Of a stretch of 32,176 bases of DNA, positions 4,655-31,143 are shown piece after piece. The notes under the pieces are model-generated. The model saw only the letters and a program-made list of their open reading frames with translations. It had not been told where the DNA came from and did no database searches. Position 1 is the first letter of the stretch. The number at the start of each line of letters is the position of its first letter. Source of the DNA: a virus; IMG/VR virus record IMGVR_UViG_3300045541_000097, positions 1-32,176 of that record. One strand, 5' to 3'. A program made the position numbers and the translations under genes.

Positions 4655-4657
4655 TTC

Positions 4658-4673
4658 TTGCAACCGGTTGCAA
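4658..4673. repeat. 16-bp palindrome, exact copy (fills gene junction)
   Basis: Begins 3 nt after the previous stop and ends 1 nt before ATG 4675. Confidence 0.95.
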
Positions 4674-4674
4674 T

Positions 4675-5502
4675 ATGACTGATACTGTCAAAACTTTCCC
4701 AAAAATCGTTGGCCTCAAGGTCGTAAGGAAACGATTGACCGATCTCCTATTTCACCCGGAGAACCCGCGCATTCACCCACCAAAAGGGACTCCTGAGTGG
4801 AATACACTTCGGGAGTCCCTTCTTGATGATTACTTCGATCCTATCATCTGGAATCGACGCAACGGTATGCTCGTTGGTGGGCATTACCGAGTTAAAATCT
4901 TCCAAGACGAAGGCGTTCAGGAAGTCGATGTCGTCGAAGTTGATTACGACAACGAAACGCACCTTGCTCGTTTGTTTGCTGCGAACAAGGCTCTTGGTAT
5001 TGATGACCAAGATAAGCGAAGAGAGCTTTTCCTTCGTTTGCATGAGATACCTGACTTCAAGGTATCTCTGACAGGTTTCACTACCGAAGAGTTTAATCGA
5101 GTCTGCCTTAATGATGGAGTCAATACTGACGAACTCACTGGACGAGACACCGATGACGAAAAAACTCCAAGGGACTCCACGAAGCTGAACGCCGTGCTTG
5201 CTACTTGCGTCGTTGGCAACATTACTGTCAAAGAGGGGGAGAAGTGGGTTCTCGGCAGACACATCCTATTCTGCGGACCCCTTACTACCACCCGATTCGA
5301 GGACGAGCTTGCAACTCAGCGAGCCAACAATGAGCCGACTGGAATGACGGTTCTTTTCATTCCATGTCCTGATCCTTACATGGCTCTGACTAACCGCGAG
5401 GATGTCATCCTTGTTATGCTTCAACCTGACGAATTCGTCGCATCGCACATCGTCAGCAATTTCGCAATCACCCACCCTGACGAACAGTGCCAGAAACTAT
5501 AA
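4675..5502 (+). CDS. ParB/Srx-like domain protein with eroded DNA methylase tail
   Basis: A 275-residue protein. Residues about 15-105 form a ParB N-terminal-like domain (HPENPRIHPP, then MLVGGHYRVKIFQDEG). About residues 175-200 contain the linker VKEGEKWVLGRHILFCGP, which in ParB-methylase fusions immediately precedes the catalytic TDPPY motif of an adenine or cytosine methyltransferase. Here the expected position reads PCPDPYMAL and no SAM-binding FxGxG segment follows; the protein ends about 75 residues later. It therefore looks like a fusion whose methylase half is truncated or degenerated, perhaps made redundant by the base-modification genes downstream. It overlaps the next start by 16 nt. 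Confidence 0.65.
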   Translation: MTDTVKTFPKIVGLKVVRKRLTDLLFHPENPRIHPPKGTPEWNTLRESLLDDYFDPIIWNRRNGMLVGGHYRVKIFQDEGVQEVDVVEVDYDNETHLARLFAANKALGIDDQDKRRELFLRLHEIPDFKVSLTGFTTEEFNRVCLNDGVNTDELTGRDTDDEKTPRDSTKLNAVLATCVVGNITVKEGEKWVLGRHILFCGPLTTTRFEDELATQRANNEPTGMTVLFIPCPDPYMALTNREDVILVMLQPDEFVASHIVSNFAITHPDEQCQKL

Positions 5503-6382: not shown

Positions 6383-7654
6383 ATGTGCGCTATCTTTGGA
6401 GCTATCGGTTCTGACAAAAAGATTCCTCTTAATCGAGTCGAATCTCTGGCGGATGCTGCTTCCAGCCGAGGGAGAGACGGAACCCGGTATCAAAAATTTC
6501 AACTCAGAAACGGAAGAGTTGCCTACCTTGGTAATGCAAGGGCAGCACCAACTACTGAACTCGCTCAAGGCCCATTGCAGCCGTATAACGGGGTTGTCCA
6601 CAACGGGACAATCAGCAATGACAAGGAGCTTGGTGCCGAGGCGGGGGAAATTGATAGCATGGTCTTGTCCCGAGTGCTGGACACGATGACGTTCCCGAGA
6701 TTCATCGAGAGCTTGAAAAAGGTCAAGGGTTCCTATGCTTTGGCCTGTGCCAGTGAAAGCACGGTGTATCTAGCGAGGAACTACAAGCCTCTCTATTATG
6801 TCGAAGTGGACAACGTGGTATGGTTTGCATCTATGCCATACATGCTTGAGCAGGTTCTTCTTCTTGGTCTGAGCGGCATCGCTCCTGTGGAAGTCCCTCC
6901 GTATTCTGCTGTCGATCTCAGGTCGTTTCTCACTCTCCCTGTCGATAGCCGACCAGACAACGAGAACAAGGTCATGGTGATTGCATCCGCTGGACTTGAT
7001 TCTACGGCAGTCGCAGCTCACTACGCAGCTCAAGGAAAGGAAGTCACCTTGCTGCACTTCAAATACGGGTGCGTGGCTCAGACCCGTGAAACTGAGTGTA
7101 TCCAGAAGATCGCTCATGCCATTGAGACAAAGTTTGCAACCAGTTGCAAAGTTCGCTTCATGTCCCTCCCGTATGAACAGATCAAATCATCTTCCCCGAT
7201 TTTGGGCGAGGGTGGCACGATTGCGGGGGGCGTAGAAGGCGCAGAATTTGCGTTTGAGTGGGTGCCAGCAAGGAACTTGCTGATGGTAGCGGCAGCAGTG
7301 GCAACGGCTGAGGCGGAAGGCTACGGCATTGTGTCACTTGGGCTTAACATCGAAGAGAGTGGTGCCTACCCTGACAATGAAGAAGCATTCACCCAAGGTC
7401 TGAATGGGATCATGGCCTATGCTGTCTCTACTCAGGCAAAGGTGCGAATCGAGTGTCCGTTTGATCGTTTCACGAAACGGGAGATCGTTAAGCACGGTCT
7501 GGAGATCGGTGCCCCATTCGAGCACACTTGGTCATGCTATCGCGGCGGGGAAATTGCCTGCGGAGAATGCGGGCCTGATTTTATGCGGCAAATGGCGTTT
7601 CATCGCAACGGAGTGAAAGACCCAATCCCATATAAAAAGCCGTTGACCTTCTAG
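6383..7654 (+). CDS. gat-queC: GAT-QueC: class II amidotransferase fused to 7-cyano-7-deazaguanine synthase
   Basis: A 423-residue fusion. Residues 1 to about 190 are a class II glutamine amidotransferase starting MCAIFGAIG, with Cys2 as the N-terminal nucleophile and VVHNGTISN further on. Residues about 195-410 are QueC, with the PP-loop SAGLDS (202-207) and a zinc site Cys385, Cys393, Cys396. GAT-QueC makes archaeosine (G+) from preQ0 in Crenarchaeota and is linked to deoxyarchaeosine in phage 9g DNA, so a similar product is expected here. The fourth zinc Cys is Asp399. The last 29 residues appear to have been replaced by an invading HNH element (see 7568-8270); the displaced original tail keeps the Cys. 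A palindrome variant lies at codons 251-256. Confidence 0.85.
   Translation: MCAIFGAIGSDKKIPLNRVESLADAASSRGRDGTRYQKFQLRNGRVAYLGNARAAPTTELAQGPLQPYNGVVHNGTISNDKELGAEAGEIDSMVLSRVLDTMTFPRFIESLKKVKGSYALACASESTVYLARNYKPLYYVEVDNVVWFASMPYMLEQVLLLGLSGIAPVEVPPYSAVDLRSFLTLPVDSRPDNENKVMVIASAGLDSTAVAAHYAAQGKEVTLLHFKYGCVAQTRETECIQKIAHAIETKFATSCKVRFMSLPYEQIKSSSPILGEGGTIAGGVEGAEFAFEWVPARNLLMVAAAVATAEAEGYGIVSLGLNIEESGAYPDNEEAFTQGLNGIMAYAVSTQAKVRIECPFDRFTKREIVKHGLEIGAPFEHTWSCYRGGEIACGECGPDFMRQMAFHRNGVKDPIPYKKPLTF
7134..7149. repeat. 16-bp palindrome variant, CCAG centre (intragenic)
   Basis: TTGCAACCAGTTGCAA inside gat-queC, read as FATSCK. One substitution from the consensus, in the central CCGG. Confidence 0.8.
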
Positions 7655-8557: not shown

Positions 8558-9006
8558 AAACCTGCTCAAAGACCTACCCCGACTTTCCCTTTGCCCACCG
8601 CCAGCATAAGCACAGCGGACACTGCCGATTCATCCACGGCCACAACTGGACATTCACTTTTGAGTTCGCATGTGACCGCGACAACGGACAAGGATTCGTA
8701 ATCGACTTTGGTCGGTTGAAGTGGCTCAAGGCATGGCTCGAAAAGCACTTCGACCACACCTGCGTTCTCAATCACGATGACCCGCTTGTCGGTCAGTTTC
8801 ATAGCGTCGGCGGGGATGACGCATGGGACATTACTGTCGTTCCTGACGCATCCTGCGAAGGTATTGCTCAGTTCGTGTTCGAGCAGGTCAATGCCCTCCT
8901 CGCCAGCGATCAGGTGCTCGAAGGTGAAGACGTTGGACGGGGCATCCGTGTTGTTTCGCTTGTCGTCTATGAAGACAGCAAAAACTCCGCCAAATACTCA
9001 GAGTGA
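8554..9006 (+). CDS. queD: 6-carboxy-tetrahydropterin synthase QueD
   Basis: A 150-residue protein of the PTPS/QueD family. The zinc histidines are in FAHRQ and HGHNW, the catalytic Cys is in SGHCRFIHGH, and FDHTCVLN and SCEGIAQFVFEQ are the later conserved blocks. QueD turns dihydroneopterin triphosphate, made by FolE, into 6-carboxy-5,6,7,8-tetrahydropterin, the substrate of QueE. It is coupled to the upstream DUF3310 gene by ATGA. The length fits the family. Confidence 0.9.
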   Translation: MKTCSKTYPDFPFAHRQHKHSGHCRFIHGHNWTFTFEFACDRDNGQGFVIDFGRLKWLKAWLEKHFDHTCVLNHDDPLVGQFHSVGGDDAWDITVVPDASCEGIAQFVFEQVNALLASDQVLEGEDVGRGIRVVSLVVYEDSKNSAKYSE

Positions 9007-10446: not shown

Positions 10447-11072
10447 CCGAGACACCCACAGTTCAACCTCGCCGCCGCGTGCGGACAGAGCGCCTTGAGG
10501 TAACAGTGAATCCAGAAGAACAAAAACTGGATCACGTTGCGGAGCGTATTCGTCTGCAAAAGGAGACGTTCGTGCGCGAACTGAAAAGCCGCCTAGGTCT
10601 GATGATGATGACATGCGAGGCCATGAACATCTCCTATGAGACTGTTCGTGGTTGGGCAAAGTCTGATCCTGATTTCCTTGCTCAAATCAGTGGCGTGCAG
10701 GAATACACTCTTGACGTAGTTGAGCAGAGATTCCTGAAAAAGATTGTCGATGAGGGGGACACCACGGCGATGATCTTCTATCTCAAGACAAAGGGCAAGG
10801 GTCGCGGATTCTCTACCCGAGTCGAACTCACTGGTGCTAACGGTGGACCAATCGAGTCTGAGAGCACGATTAAGGTGTCTGAGATTCAGAAGGAGCTTCC
10901 TGCCGATGTGCTGGATGCTATCATCCTAAGCTCGACCGCGAACATTGTGCAACCGGTTGCAAATCCGCACCTGACCCAGCCTGTCTTGGAGGCTGTCGTG
11001 AAGGAGTCCAGCCCGAACGGGTATGAAATGGAAGACGAATTCGATGACGAAGAAGAAGAAGAAATCGAATGA
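10443..11072 (+). CDS. terS: Terminase small subunit
   Basis: A 209-residue protein. A helix-turn-helix lies at about 50-80 (MTCEAMNISYETVRGWAKSDPDF), followed by GDTTAMIFYLKTKGKGRGF, a block typical of phage TerS proteins, and a very acidic C-terminus (EDEFDDEEEEEIE). TerS recognises the packaging site and stimulates the large subunit encoded immediately downstream, with which it overlaps by ATGA. A near-exact palindrome copy sits at codons 169-174 (VQPVAN), in a region likely to be a disordered linker. Confidence 0.85.
   Translation: MTETPTVQPRRRVRTERLEVTVNPEEQKLDHVAERIRLQKETFVRELKSRLGLMMMTCEAMNISYETVRGWAKSDPDFLAQISGVQEYTLDVVEQRFLKKIVDEGDTTAMIFYLKTKGKGRGFSTRVELTGANGGPIESESTIKVSEIQKELPADVLDAIILSSTANIVQPVANPHLTQPVLEAVVKESSPNGYEMEDEFDDEEEEEIE
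10947..10962. repeat. 16-bp palindrome, 15/16 match (intragenic)
   Basis: GTGCAACCGGTTGCAA inside terS, read in frame as VQPVAN; only the first base differs. Confidence 0.85.
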
Positions 11073-12635: not shown

Positions 12636-12663
12636 TTGCAATCTTGTTAAACTATGGTATAAT
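12636..12663 (+). promoter_or_regulatory. Strong promoter heading the RNA gene region; -35 is a palindrome half-site
   Basis: TTGCAA (12636-12641), a 16-bp spacer, TATAAT (12658-12663) and then GACAATG. TTGCAA is the right arm of a degenerate palindrome at 12626-12641, so a protein bound there would cover the -35 box. It likely drives the tRNA and tmRNA region. Confidence 0.65.
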
Positions 12664-12923
12664 GACAATGTTGAAGGAAGGAACGAAAAGCTCCGACTGA
12701 CAACTAAGCCCGAAGGGGCTAAACAAGTTTCTCCGTTCTTTGACAACTTCTACGACAATTTCTTGAGGCTGATCGGCCAGCAATGGTCCAGCCGAGAGCA
12801 AACCAGCGGGAAAGTCCCCCCATGAGTATCGCTGCGTAATCCAAGGGGGTATGCAGTTCGTGGCTAACTAAACGGGAGTTTCTAGGAGTCCTCCCAAAAC
12901 ACCGATAAATTACTCCACCAAAT
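12664..12923 (+). ncRNA. Structured leader of the RNA gene region
   Basis: No convincing gene. Likely hairpins: AGCCC/GGGCT around a GAAG-type loop, GGCTG/CAGCC enclosing GGCC/GGTC, CCCCC/GGGGG, and GGGAG/CTCCC close to the tRNA. A 10-codon frame from ATG 12668 is probably incidental. It may be a structured RNA or simply a precursor leader. Confidence 0.4.
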
Positions 12924-12999
12924 TGCGGGATGGAGCAGATGGTAGCTCGGCTGGCTCATAACCAGTAGGTCGTTGGTTCGAGTCCAACTCCCGCAACCA
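12924..12999 (+). tRNA. Initiator-type tRNA-Met (CAT), CCA encoded
   Basis: A 76-nt cloverleaf: acceptor TGCGGGA/TCCCGCA, D stem GAGC/GCTC, anticodon arm GCTGG-CTCATAA-CCAGT, T arm GTTGG-TTCGAGT-CCAAC, discriminator A, CCA encoded. TGGAGC after the acceptor, giving the A11:U24 pair, and overall similarity to bacterial fMet tRNA mark it as initiator-type. Two hallmarks are weakened: position 1:72 is a T:A pair, not a mismatch, and the anticodon stem has only two of the three consecutive G:C pairs. Confidence 0.85.
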
Positions 13000-13401
13000 A
13001 ATGGGCATCGAGCGGCGTTCGGACTCACAAGGTTTCTTATGCGTGATCTGCGAAAAGCTAAAAGCCAAGCAGAGTGCCCGCCTTGGTTGCAAAGTTCGGG
13101 TTTCGTAATAGCGATAAAACAAGCGAAGCGGTCAAAGTATAAGTCCAATGTGCATCAGACCCTAGTAGCCTGCGACACTTCCGCCGAGACTTACGAAGCT
13201 CGAACTTTGCAACCGGTTGCAAAAAGTTTAGTCATAGATGGCAGCAAGTGGATGGCAGTGATGATTCTGAAACATGGGACTGGATGCAGTCGTTGTAATT
13301 CCAGCAGTTAGCTCACTGACGCTTCTTCGGTTCAACGTAAACGCCACGCGGGGCTTTGAATTCCGCTTGTTGCCGTCTGTGACTCGTTACAGACAATTTT
13401 C
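13000..13401 (+). other. Non-coding stretch between tRNA-Met and tmRNA
   Basis: About 400 bp without a convincing gene or tRNA. GGGCA just after the tRNA can pair with TGCCC at about 13076-13080, closing a hairpin domain; the motif GGCATCGAG recurs just after tRNA-Lys. An exact palindrome lies at 13207-13222. It may be transcript spacer or part of another structured RNA. Confidence 0.4.
13207..13222. repeat. 16-bp palindrome, exact copy (RNA gene region)
   Basis: TTGCAACCGGTTGCAA in the non-coding stretch 180 bp upstream of the tmRNA. Confidence 0.95.
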
Positions 13402-13867: not shown

Positions 13868-14371
13868 ATGTCTAAATCTCTTGCTAAAGCAGTTTTTGAA
13901 AAAGGTTATCGAGTTACTGAGCTTGGTAATGTCTTAAATAGTAAAGGGGTTCCACTTTCTCTTAGAGAAAGCCCAGAGGGTTACTATACGTTCAGTGTTA
14001 GAAAACTTAATGGGGTTGTAACTCCAATGAGAGTTTGCCAATTAGCAGCTTACCAAAAGTTTGGTGACTCCTATATGGTCGATGGAGTAGTAGCAAGGCA
14101 TCTTGACGATGATTCTCTAAACGATGCTCTCGACAATATAGGGATTGGAACTCAGGGGCAGAATGCAATGGATCGACCAGAAATTGATCGCAGAGAGCAC
14201 GCAGCAAAAGGAAATCAGAAGCATAGCCCTGAGTTCATTGCTTTGCTGAAAGCAGATCGAGAGCAGGGAATGTCTTATAAAGAGTTGTGCGAAAAGCACG
14301 GAATCTGCAAAGCAACCTGCTCCTATTATCTTAGTAACAGTGCGAAGCGCAAGTCATTCACATTTTCTTAA
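13868..14371 (+). CDS. HNH-type homing endonuclease with C-terminal helix-turn-helix
   Basis: A 167-residue protein. The central part (LAAYQKFGDSYMVD, RHLDDDSLNDALDNI, GTQGQNAMD) follows the HNH_3/AP2-like homing endonuclease pattern of a His-Asp turn, an Asn-rich turn and a GT..N helix. The C-terminal 40 residues (MSYKELCEKHGICKATCSYYL) form a helix-turn-helix that would bind the target. Codons are A/T-rich compared with neighbours. It lies immediately behind the tmRNA in an otherwise gene-free RNA region and brings its own promoter, like the HNH gene in queC. The HNH core is less canonical than in that gene, so activity is uncertain. Confidence 0.65.
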   Translation: MSKSLAKAVFEKGYRVTELGNVLNSKGVPLSLRESPEGYYTFSVRKLNGVVTPMRVCQLAAYQKFGDSYMVDGVVARHLDDDSLNDALDNIGIGTQGQNAMDRPEIDRREHAAKGNQKHSPEFIALLKADREQGMSYKELCEKHGICKATCSYYLSNSAKRKSFTFS

Positions 14372-14533: not shown

Positions 14534-14609
14534 GCAGGCGTAGCTCAGTGGTAGAGCAGCGGAGCTTTAATCCGTTGGTCGTTGGTTCGAGTCCAGCCGA
14601 CCTGCACCA
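14534..14609 (+). tRNA. tRNA-Lys (TTT)-like, atypical
   Basis: Acceptor GCAGGCG, D arm GCTCAGTGGTAGAGC, anticodon arm GCGGA-GCTTTAA-TCCGT, T arm GTTGG-TTCGAGT-CCAGC and encoded ACCA. Compared with a normal tRNA-Lys it has C instead of the universal U at position 33 (and G32), and the 3' acceptor strand CGACCTGC carries one extra A that must bulge for the stem to close. The TTT anticodon follows from loop position. It may be a decaying or functionally altered tRNA. Confidence 0.7.
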
Positions 14610-15376
14610 ATTTGAAGGCATCGAGTAAAGGCATACGGCCCGAGGATGCTATTCTGTGCCGCTCGTCCGACGGCAGAAAAAGGGTGCAAACCCCATTGGA
14701 CAGTTACCGTGCAGGGTGAAGAAATTCAGTCCACAGTAATTTGCCGCAAGGTGAACCGAGTTGGAACTACTCAGGAAAAAAGGTTCGCGGCGAAAGCCAG
14801 CGCGGGTGCAATGCTCACGGGTAGCTCCGTTAATAAGTAGAAAGTGAAGCCCATAGAGACCTCAATCGCAGATGAATCCTTCGTGGACCCCGTATGACTT
14901 CACAATCGTAACCTCGACCAGTTTCGGCTGTCCGTTTTCGAGGCATGTAGCTAAAAGGTAGGCTGCAATCTAATTCGGCTGTTAGAATACCCCTGAGCGT
15001 GGGGTTCCGAAAAGACTGGACTATCCAACGGGCCGGTTCTCGAAAGAGGGCGTCTGTGTTCCCAAGTAGATCGGACCTGCGTTTAACGTCCAGATTCCCG
15101 AAAGGGATGACGTAGGAAAGAGATTCGCAAACTCTCGATTCAGCCTATACACTTCTCGGCTTGCCGAGTCTCTCAAAGTGGTATGTCGATAAGAGTAACT
15201 CGACAACTTTATTCTGGTTGTGGCATCAAGTAACGCTCGAAGGCTGTTATGATAGCTAATCAAATTCGAGGACCAAAAGTTTAGCAGTATTGAGATTCGC
15301 TGCGGCCAAGATGGTCGAATCCAGTAAGTGTCCTAAAGCCGCTCGGAGCAGACTTACCAACTGCCTGCTATGATCT
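14610..15376 (+). ncRNA. Candidate large structured RNA
   Basis: About 770 nt without a plausible gene but dense in stable hairpins, several with GNRA tetraloops: GGC-GAAA-GCC (14789-14798), TTCTC-GAAA-GAGGG (15037-15050), and a two-part arm ACGTC...TCCC-GAAA-GGGA...GACGT (15086-15113). Also ACCCC/GGGGT near 14990-15006, CTCGGC/GCCGAG near 15155, and AAAGT...GTCGA...TCGAC...ACTTT (15175-15210). Large ornate RNAs such as GOLLD and ROOL are known from phages, often next to tRNAs, and this region fits that setting and scale. I cannot claim homology from sequence alone; exact ends are unknown and may include 15377-15500. Confidence 0.5.
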
Positions 15377-15500
15377 CCACCGGTAGTGTTAATGGTCGCA
15401 CAGCACAAATAGAGTGAGTCGCCCATTCGCTTCACAGCACGAACTCACTTGAAACACCTTCTAGGGGCGAGTGATGGTTCGAGTCCATCTCGGTGGGCCA
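15377..15500 (+). tRNA. tRNA-like domain, expanded or interrupted
   Basis: CCACCGG-TA followed by a D-arm-like GTGT...GCAC pairs over all seven positions with TCGGTGG at the other end; a perfect T arm GATGG-TTCGAGT-CCATC, discriminator G and encoded CCA complete the 3' half. The span is 124 nt, and no normal anticodon arm can be folded; alternative internal stems are AGTGAGT/ACTCACT and TCGCCC/GGGCGA. Options are a tRNA with an insertion, a degenerate tRNA, or a tRNA-like 3' domain of the adjoining large RNA. No amino acid can be assigned. Confidence 0.5.
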
Positions 15501-15516
15501 ATGCAACCGGTTGCAA
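15501..15516. repeat. 16-bp palindrome, 15/16 match (3' of tRNA-like CCA)
   Basis: ATGCAACCGGTTGCAA begins at the base after the CCA of the tRNA-like element. Its left arm ATGCAA lies 18 bp from a TATGCT (15525-15530), a possible promoter for the small RNA that follows. Confidence 0.85.
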
Positions 15517-15533
15517 AACTGTGCTATGCTCTT

Positions 15534-15625
15534 GCAGACTGATAGCCATAACCAAAACGTCTGCATGGTGGAGGACGCAAACCGCGTCCCTAAAGCCGGG
15601 AGTCCTAACACGACTCCCGGCTTTT
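15534..15625 (+). ncRNA. Candidate small RNA of three hairpins
   Basis: Three consecutive perfect stems: GCAGAC/GTCTGC (15534-15539, 15559-15564), GGACGC/GCGTCC (15573-15578, 15584-15589) and a terminator (15592-15624). There is no gene in this interval, and a possible -10 (TATGCT) lies directly upstream. It could be a free small RNA or the 3' end of the large RNA transcript. Confidence 0.5.
15592..15625 (+). terminator. Terminator of the RNA gene region
   Basis: AAAGCCGGGAGT (15592-15603) pairs perfectly with ACTCCCGGCTTT (15613-15624), followed by T and CTCG; it ends the non-coding region just before the next coding gene. Confidence 0.85.
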
Positions 15626-19601: not shown

Positions 19602-19604
19602 TTC

Positions 19605-19620
19605 TTGCAACCGGTTGCAA
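19605..19620. repeat. 16-bp palindrome, exact copy (after stop)
   Basis: Starts 3 nt after the methyltransferase stop and lies 31 bp upstream of the -35 of the next promoter. Confidence 0.95.
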
Positions 19621-19651
19621 AACGGTTTCACAAAATAGGTTGTTTTTGATG

Positions 19652-20436: not shown

Positions 20437-20468
20437 CGGGGACTGTCTTAACTGGCAGTCCCCGTTTT
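20437..20468 (+). terminator. Intrinsic terminator
   Basis: CGGGGACTG (20437-20445) pairs perfectly with CAGTCCCCG (20456-20464), followed by TTTT. An exact palindrome starts 2 nt later. Confidence 0.9.
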
Positions 20469-20469
20469 C

Positions 20470-20485
20470 TTGCAACCGGTTGCAA
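20470..20485. repeat. 16-bp palindrome, exact copy (between terminator and ATG)
   Basis: Lies directly after a terminator and 3 nt before ATG 20489. Confidence 0.95.
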
Positions 20486-20488
20486 ACC

Positions 20489-31098: not shown

Positions 31099-31111
31099 AT
31101 GAAAATTCATG

Positions 31112-31127
31112 TTGCAACCGGTTGCAA
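31112..31127. repeat. 16-bp palindrome, exact copy (upstream of 31144)
   Basis: Lies 16 nt before ATG 31144; a second exact copy follows 223 bp after its end. Confidence 0.95.
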
Positions 31128-31143
31128 ATCAGGTATATTTACC

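Follow-up and report, generated by a model that had tools for sequence, protein, structure and literature searches.

The stretch that lies between a tRNA-Lys gene and a terminator hairpin in this phage raises the question of what RNA is encoded there and whether it belongs to a known family. The window referred to below is the whole stretch of DNA analyzed, 32,176 nucleotides of virus record IMGVR_UViG_3300045541_000097. The first-pass annotation described positions 14610-15500 as a candidate large structured RNA among tRNAs, either related to GOLLD or ROOL or a new class. To our knowledge, GOLLD and ROOL are abundant large phage RNAs that are found by tRNAs and form RNA-only cages, and their function is not known. 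If an RNA of another origin occupies the tRNA-side niche as well, the niche extends past these two families.

The locus is part of a putative RNA operon on the + strand. A promoter-like site (TTGCAA-16-TATAAT, positions 12636-12663) is located right after the terminase gene, matches the consensus at 10 of 12 positions, has a TG before the -10, and is the presumed start of the operon. It is followed by tRNA-Met(CAU) (12924-12999), the sole tRNA called by ARAGORN in the window, a phage tmRNA (13402-13814; Rfam RF00023, 94 bits), and an ORF resembling an HNH endonuclease (13868-14371; phrog_59, 2e-16). A tRNA-Lys(UUU) with an encoded CCA and a C at position 33 (14534-14609; Rfam tRNA match at 14535-14605) forms the 5’ boundary of the RNA studied here, which is 767 nucleotides in length (14610-15376). 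The 3’ boundary is a tRNA-like element of 124 nucleotides (15377-15500). Beyond it are a copy of a dispersed palindrome (TGCAACCGGTTGCAAAA, 15502-15518), probably a phage operator, and a strong terminator hairpin (15592-15624) that matches the consensus and is the presumed end of the operon.

Several other features of the operon were recorded. Two further gene-free stretches are present at 12664-12923 and 13000-13401 (260 and 402 nucleotides), and the first of these contains 2 tetraloop hairpins versus 0.26 expected (P 0.04). The tag frame of the phage tmRNA (13497-13616) encodes GNDSDIDSLIAQAESIKDNADAVLAKFAAKSRKADLQLA, which at 39 residues is unusually long, and its resume codon is Gly by alignment. 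Three stacked hairpins are located at 15526-15624, after the operator copy. The last of the three is the terminator, and the group may be a separate small RNA.

The span first assigned to the unexplained RNA was 14610-15500. This assignment remains for 14610-15376, and the last 124 nucleotides are excluded because 15377-15500 is a separate tRNA-like element. The element contains an acceptor stem of 7 base pairs (CCACCGG/UCGGUGG) and a T arm (GAUGG-UUCGAGU-CCAUC), both of them perfect, together with a D-like arm and a GCCA end. When tested as a tRNA, the acceptor stem, the T arm, and the CCA end were all found. Its anticodon and variable part is enlarged, with approximately 45 extra nucleotides between the D and T arms. 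A normal anticodon arm with U33 is absent, ARAGORN made no call, and the only match was a weak one to tRNA-Sec (16.5 bits).

Similar elements exist in other phages. The T-arm stretch of this element (23 nucleotides) recurs without change in Vibrio phage VCO139, where it falls in a gap that carries no annotation (L085:2501-2523), and VCO139 likewise has a tRNA-like element of approximately 110 nucleotides. In the relative phage G012 (L180, minus strand, approximately 8630-8773 of the reverse complement), a tRNA whose acceptor, D, and T arms are canonical has approximately 70 extra nucleotides in the anticodon arm. Is this a natural tRNA scaffold with another hairpin?

The segment does not have the codon usage of a gene. 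All frames of 14610-15376 are within noise, with a best value of +0.03 bits per codon (14616-14840), whereas most genes in the window score 0.06-0.5 bits per codon by the same measure. A gene-free stretch of about 0.8-0.9 kb, as originally described, is thus confirmed by codon usage for 14610-15376. A 64-residue ORF at 14646-14840 was considered as a gene and rejected, as it has no codon signal and the homology search gave no credible relative.

Hairpins were counted as GNRA, UNCG, or CUUG loops on stems of at least 4 pairs and compared with dinucleotide shuffles. The + strand of 14610-15376 contains 7 tetraloop hairpins versus 0.8 expected, a count reached in 0 of 300 shuffles, and the minus strand contains 1. 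Over 14610-15440, the count is 7 versus 0.88 in the shuffles, and 0 of 1000 reach it. GAAA loops are located at 14721, 14792 (on a stem of 3 pairs), 15042, and 15100, GCAA loops at 14686 and 14746, a UUCG loop at 14923, and a CUUG loop at 15160. This test is partly post hoc because the loops first drew the attention of the reader of the sequence. As a guard against such selection, the region was compared with both strands of the entire window, in which it is the densest 831-nucleotide stretch, with 8 tetraloop hairpins versus a mean of 1.26.

The first-pass annotation had counted at least six strong hairpins, some with GAAA caps, and the present counts agree. The multi-part arms that it placed at 15086-15113 and 15175-15210 are present at exactly those positions. 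Two-part arms number 6 in the segment versus 3.6 expected (P 0.115), which is not a significant excess. The same annotation took the number of GNRA loops to suggest tertiary docking. This is unsupported, as the 11-nucleotide GAAA receptor sequence is absent from the region.

Folding energy gave no further signal. The energy of the + strand of the segment is not lower than that of shuffles (z +0.72), and fewer high-probability local pairs occur in it than in shuffles. Both measures are uninformative for the segment because a genuine ROOL RNA, that of plasmid pMP118 as located by its own model, likewise scores z 0.1.

Comparison with Rfam over the segment, both at the gathering cut-off and at E ≤ 10, identified no known family and only the flanking tRNA. 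Fragments of rRNA were sought within the segment, and none were found beyond chance. The membership in GOLLD or ROOL that had been proposed is not borne out, as neither model matches even at E ≤ 10. The ROOL model (RF03087) gave no match to the segment at this threshold, either in a scan of 2.2 kb or when run as a single model, and the same model found the pMP118 ROOL at 130 bits as a positive control. The GOLLD model (RF02032), which covers the conserved 3’ region, also gave no match at E ≤ 10 in the 2.2-kb scan or alone, with no positive control for this model here.

Resemblances to both families exist at the level of size and place. GOLLD is a phage non-coding RNA of the 0.8-kb class that is encoded near tRNAs, and ROOL is a large RNA of phages and plasmids that is often found by tRNA islands. 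GOLLD forms a homo-oligomeric (14-mer) nanocage, and ROOL a homo-octameric one. A very divergent GOLLD or ROOL that is invisible to the Rfam models would fit the size and location of the segment (767-1015 nucleotides among phage tRNAs). The linker of GOLLD sometimes holds tRNAs (PMC12286853). We consider such a relationship very unlikely. Unlike GOLLD, the segment shows no match in sequence or structure to the GOLLD model, and the ROOL model that fails to match it does detect a real ROOL. The genuine ROOL also lacks a tetraloop excess, with 0 tetraloop hairpins in the pMP118 RNA by the test used here versus 7 in this RNA.

A self-splicing or other catalytic RNA (a group I or II intron, or an RNase P-like RNA) interrupting the RNA operon is also very unlikely. 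The many GNRA loops and the nearby HNH ORF would be consistent with it. However, the group I intron core (RF00028, Intron_gpI, P3-P8) gave no match at E ≤ 10, and no other intron or ribozyme in Rfam matched. The position of the segment also argues against it. The tRNA-Lys at 14534-14609 is intact, 14610-15376 splits no gene, and the HNH ORF is located outside the segment.

Another large RNA of similar setting is known from phage ICP1, where an unclassified non-coding transcript of ~800 nucleotides, the most abundant transcript of the phage, is located in an ORF-less gap of ~1 kb (PMC7567579). Both are large unclassified phage RNAs in an ORF-less gap. ICP1 differs in that it has no tRNAs, and its RNA has 3 tetraloop hairpins versus 1 expected. 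There is no credible similarity between the ICP1 RNA and the segment, the best being a 43-nucleotide match with an E of 0.06 among many comparisons.

Relatives of the phage were collected through the terminase. A terminase profile (A2) recovered about 30 relatives at 44-52% identity, and none of the collections searched contains a closely related phage. A first terminase scan gave relatives at 48% identity, all of which lack the RNA, and scans with the methyltransferase and the helicase found no relatives. A blastn search in ‘distant’ mode of phages and plasmids with the segment returned tRNA or chance matches only. Stop-free frames of the RNA, used as queries against viral and genome contigs, gave no match, and neither did one exact 18-mer.

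One relative, G004 (81 kb, terminase 51% identical), shares sequence with the segment. A 16-nucleotide exact match, AAAAGGGTGCAAACCC, has an E of 0.06 within that 81-kb record and is weak alone. A second block of 9 nucleotides, ATACGGCCC, is located upstream of it at 14633-14641 (L141:7839-7847 in G004), and the spacing between the blocks is nearly equal in both phages. Among 33 12-mers shared between the RNA and all relatives, the G004 pair has both the longest main match (16 versus at most 14) and the longest second block (9 versus at most 7). The conserved 5’ domain so defined is approximately 95 nucleotides in length (14612-14706; L141:7815-7914). In G004, this element is also in a gene-free RNA cluster and is followed by tRNA-like elements.

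A covariance model of the 5’ domain, run over relatives and controls totaling 0.86 Mb, found no third copy. The gapped two-block pattern has 25 matches in genome contigs, and in 0 of the 25 do the flanking helices show the expected geometry. These matches therefore serve as an unplanned null set.

The 5’ domain forms an H-type pseudoknot in both phages. In this phage, helix H2 (14657-14661 with 14671-14675) closes a 9-nucleotide loop, which is composed of 3 nucleotides and the 6-nucleotide first strand of the pseudoknot helix (PK). A linker and a hairpin, GGGU-GCAA-ACCC (14682-14693), follow, and 1-2 nucleotides later the second PK strand completes the pairing (14665-14670, GUCCGA, with 14696-14701, UUGGAC). 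The GCAA hairpin is thereby enclosed, and the 3-nucleotide loop, the 6-base-pair PK, and the lack of a gap are common to both phages. The hairpin is invariant between this phage and G004, and the linker before it is A-rich in both (GAAAAA and GUAAAA). The sequences of the helices are almost wholly different between the two, with the pairing kept.

Covariation was measured on an ordinary MAFFT alignment made without reference to the structure, with two sequences (this phage and G004), the minimum for such a comparison. In this alignment, 96.6% of the cells pair and 6 pairs are changed on both sides. With the partner slid by 1-3 columns as a control, 28-45% of the cells pair and 0-1 pairs are changed on both sides. 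When the geometry is read by hand, both partners differ in 7 of the 11 pairs of H2 and PK, a single partner differs in 3, and 1 pair is unchanged. When the flanks were dinucleotide-shuffled around the same hairpin, the pseudoknot formed in 0.025% of cases for this phage and 0.09% for G004, and in both at once in 0 of 20,000. This two-member domain thus contains both spaced conserved blocks and compensatory changes in H2 and PK. Given these compensatory changes, and since no shuffle of the flanks produced the pseudoknot in the two phages together, we regard the 5’ domain as a genuine RNA structure that has been conserved.

Pseudoknots of related layout occur elsewhere. The preQ1-II riboswitch is an H-type pseudoknot with an embedded hairpin, and in pseudoknots of this type, as here, the loop of one hairpin pairs with a downstream strand and a second hairpin is enclosed. 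The segment differs in having no Rfam match and in being inside an RNA operon rather than in a 5’ leader. The antitoxin ToxI is an RNA pseudoknot that neutralizes ToxN (PMC5772629). The conserved pseudoknot in this phage could be an antitoxin mimic that sequesters an RNA-binding toxin of the host, as phage escape forms of ToxI do (type III toxin-antitoxin), a function that we consider very unlikely. ToxI works as tandem repeats, whereas none were seen in the segment and a descriptor of the pseudoknot found only one copy on the + strand.

The remainder of the RNA (14706-15376, approximately 670 nucleotides) is different. No relatives beyond 14706 were found in 50,697 phages, plasmids, three frame-based viral-contig scans, and one genome-contig scan. 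The G004 cluster (L141:7815-8040) shares with the segment a pseudoknot domain that is homologous and then has tRNA-like elements, but it contains no counterpart of the remaining ~670 nucleotides. It is possible, at a probability well below even, that only the first ~95-100 nucleotides are functional, as a small pseudoknot element, and that the other ~670 are spacer or decayed RNA genes. The end of homology at approximately 14706, the total length of the G004 cluster (only ~410 nucleotides), and the lack of a folding-energy signal are in agreement with this. The explanation remains serious because about 670 of the 767 nucleotides have no relative. Against it, the remainder contains 6 further tetraloop hairpins versus 0.76 expected (0 of 2000 shuffles), and the excess is on the + strand only. 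The remainder probably forms further arms capped by GNRA, UUCG, and CUUG loops, for which the statistical excess of hairpins is the sole support.

Covariation had been named at the outset as a check on the RNA, and it holds for the first ~95 nucleotides against G004 (6 double-changed pairs). The original description as a large structured RNA is retained in part. The segment is non-coding, has a structured 5’ domain, and is located among tRNAs, and the whole 0.77 kb may be one structured RNA.

The reading that we favor, somewhat more readily than we doubt it, is that the segment is a phage non-coding RNA of a stable-RNA operon, which is released by tRNA processing, has a pseudoknot at its 5’ end and likely further capped arms, and may have a role in translation. 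From a promoter at approximately 12636, the operon would run through tRNA-Met, the tmRNA, the HNH ORF, tRNA-Lys, the RNA, and the tRNA-like element to the terminator at 15592, and the segment would be co-transcribed with the tmRNA and tRNAs. Since the segment sits directly between two tRNA bodies, tRNA processing would free the RNA. The 3’ trimming of tRNA-Lys and the 5’ cleavage of the tRNA-like element would release a molecule of ~0.77 kb. Its first ~95 nucleotides fold as the H-type pseudoknot around the GCAA hairpin, after the A-rich linker, as the conserved sequence and the compensatory changes show, and the RNA may take up a compact fold.

Within this favored reading, the role is more tentative. 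The likeliest role, at a probability well below even, is that during infection the RNA targets the translation machinery, either structurally or as a decoy. This suggestion is drawn from the neighbors (a tmRNA, tRNAs, and tRNA-like elements) and from a 23S-like stretch in the relative phage G017. Ribosome binding has been reported for GOLLD in pull-downs (PMC12286853). Slightly more doubtful again is a new class of large structured phage RNAs, based on a pseudoknot domain, of which this RNA would be the founding member. Within this phage clade, islands with tmRNA, tRNAs, and tRNA-shaped RNAs whose anticodon arms are enlarged would then supply RNAs that imitate ribosome parts or bind to them. 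The covarying domain is small, short enough for expression and probing, and could offer a tractable handle on the effect of such RNAs on host translation.

The RNA cluster of G017 contains two tRNAs, tRNA-like elements, and the 23S-like stretch. The latter (L142:1440-1488) is identical at 29 of 32 nucleotides (91%) to positions 1057-1088 of E. coli 23S rRNA, in the GTPase-associated center, and has an Rfam LSU match with an E of 0.002. The CAU tRNAs of G017 (L142, approximately 2044-2052 and 2128-2138) have a C in place of the near-universal U33, as does the tRNA-Lys of this phage (14565-14571).

The dispersed palindrome, TTGCAACCGGTTGCAA, has copies at 4656-4675, 10945-10964, 13205-13224, 15502-15518, 19603-19622, 20468-20487, and 31110-31129. 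Its half sites, GGTTGCAAAA, with at most 1 mismatch, number 24 versus 3 expected, with an overlap with the -35 at 12636. Similar palindromes, TTTGAAAAGTTTTCAAA and TTTGAAACTGTTGCAAA, are present in relatives. The element is probably the operator of a phage regulator. Elsewhere in the window, the protein encoded at 6383-7651 combines a QueC-like part with a glutamine-amidotransferase part, which points to 7-deazaguanine modification of DNA.
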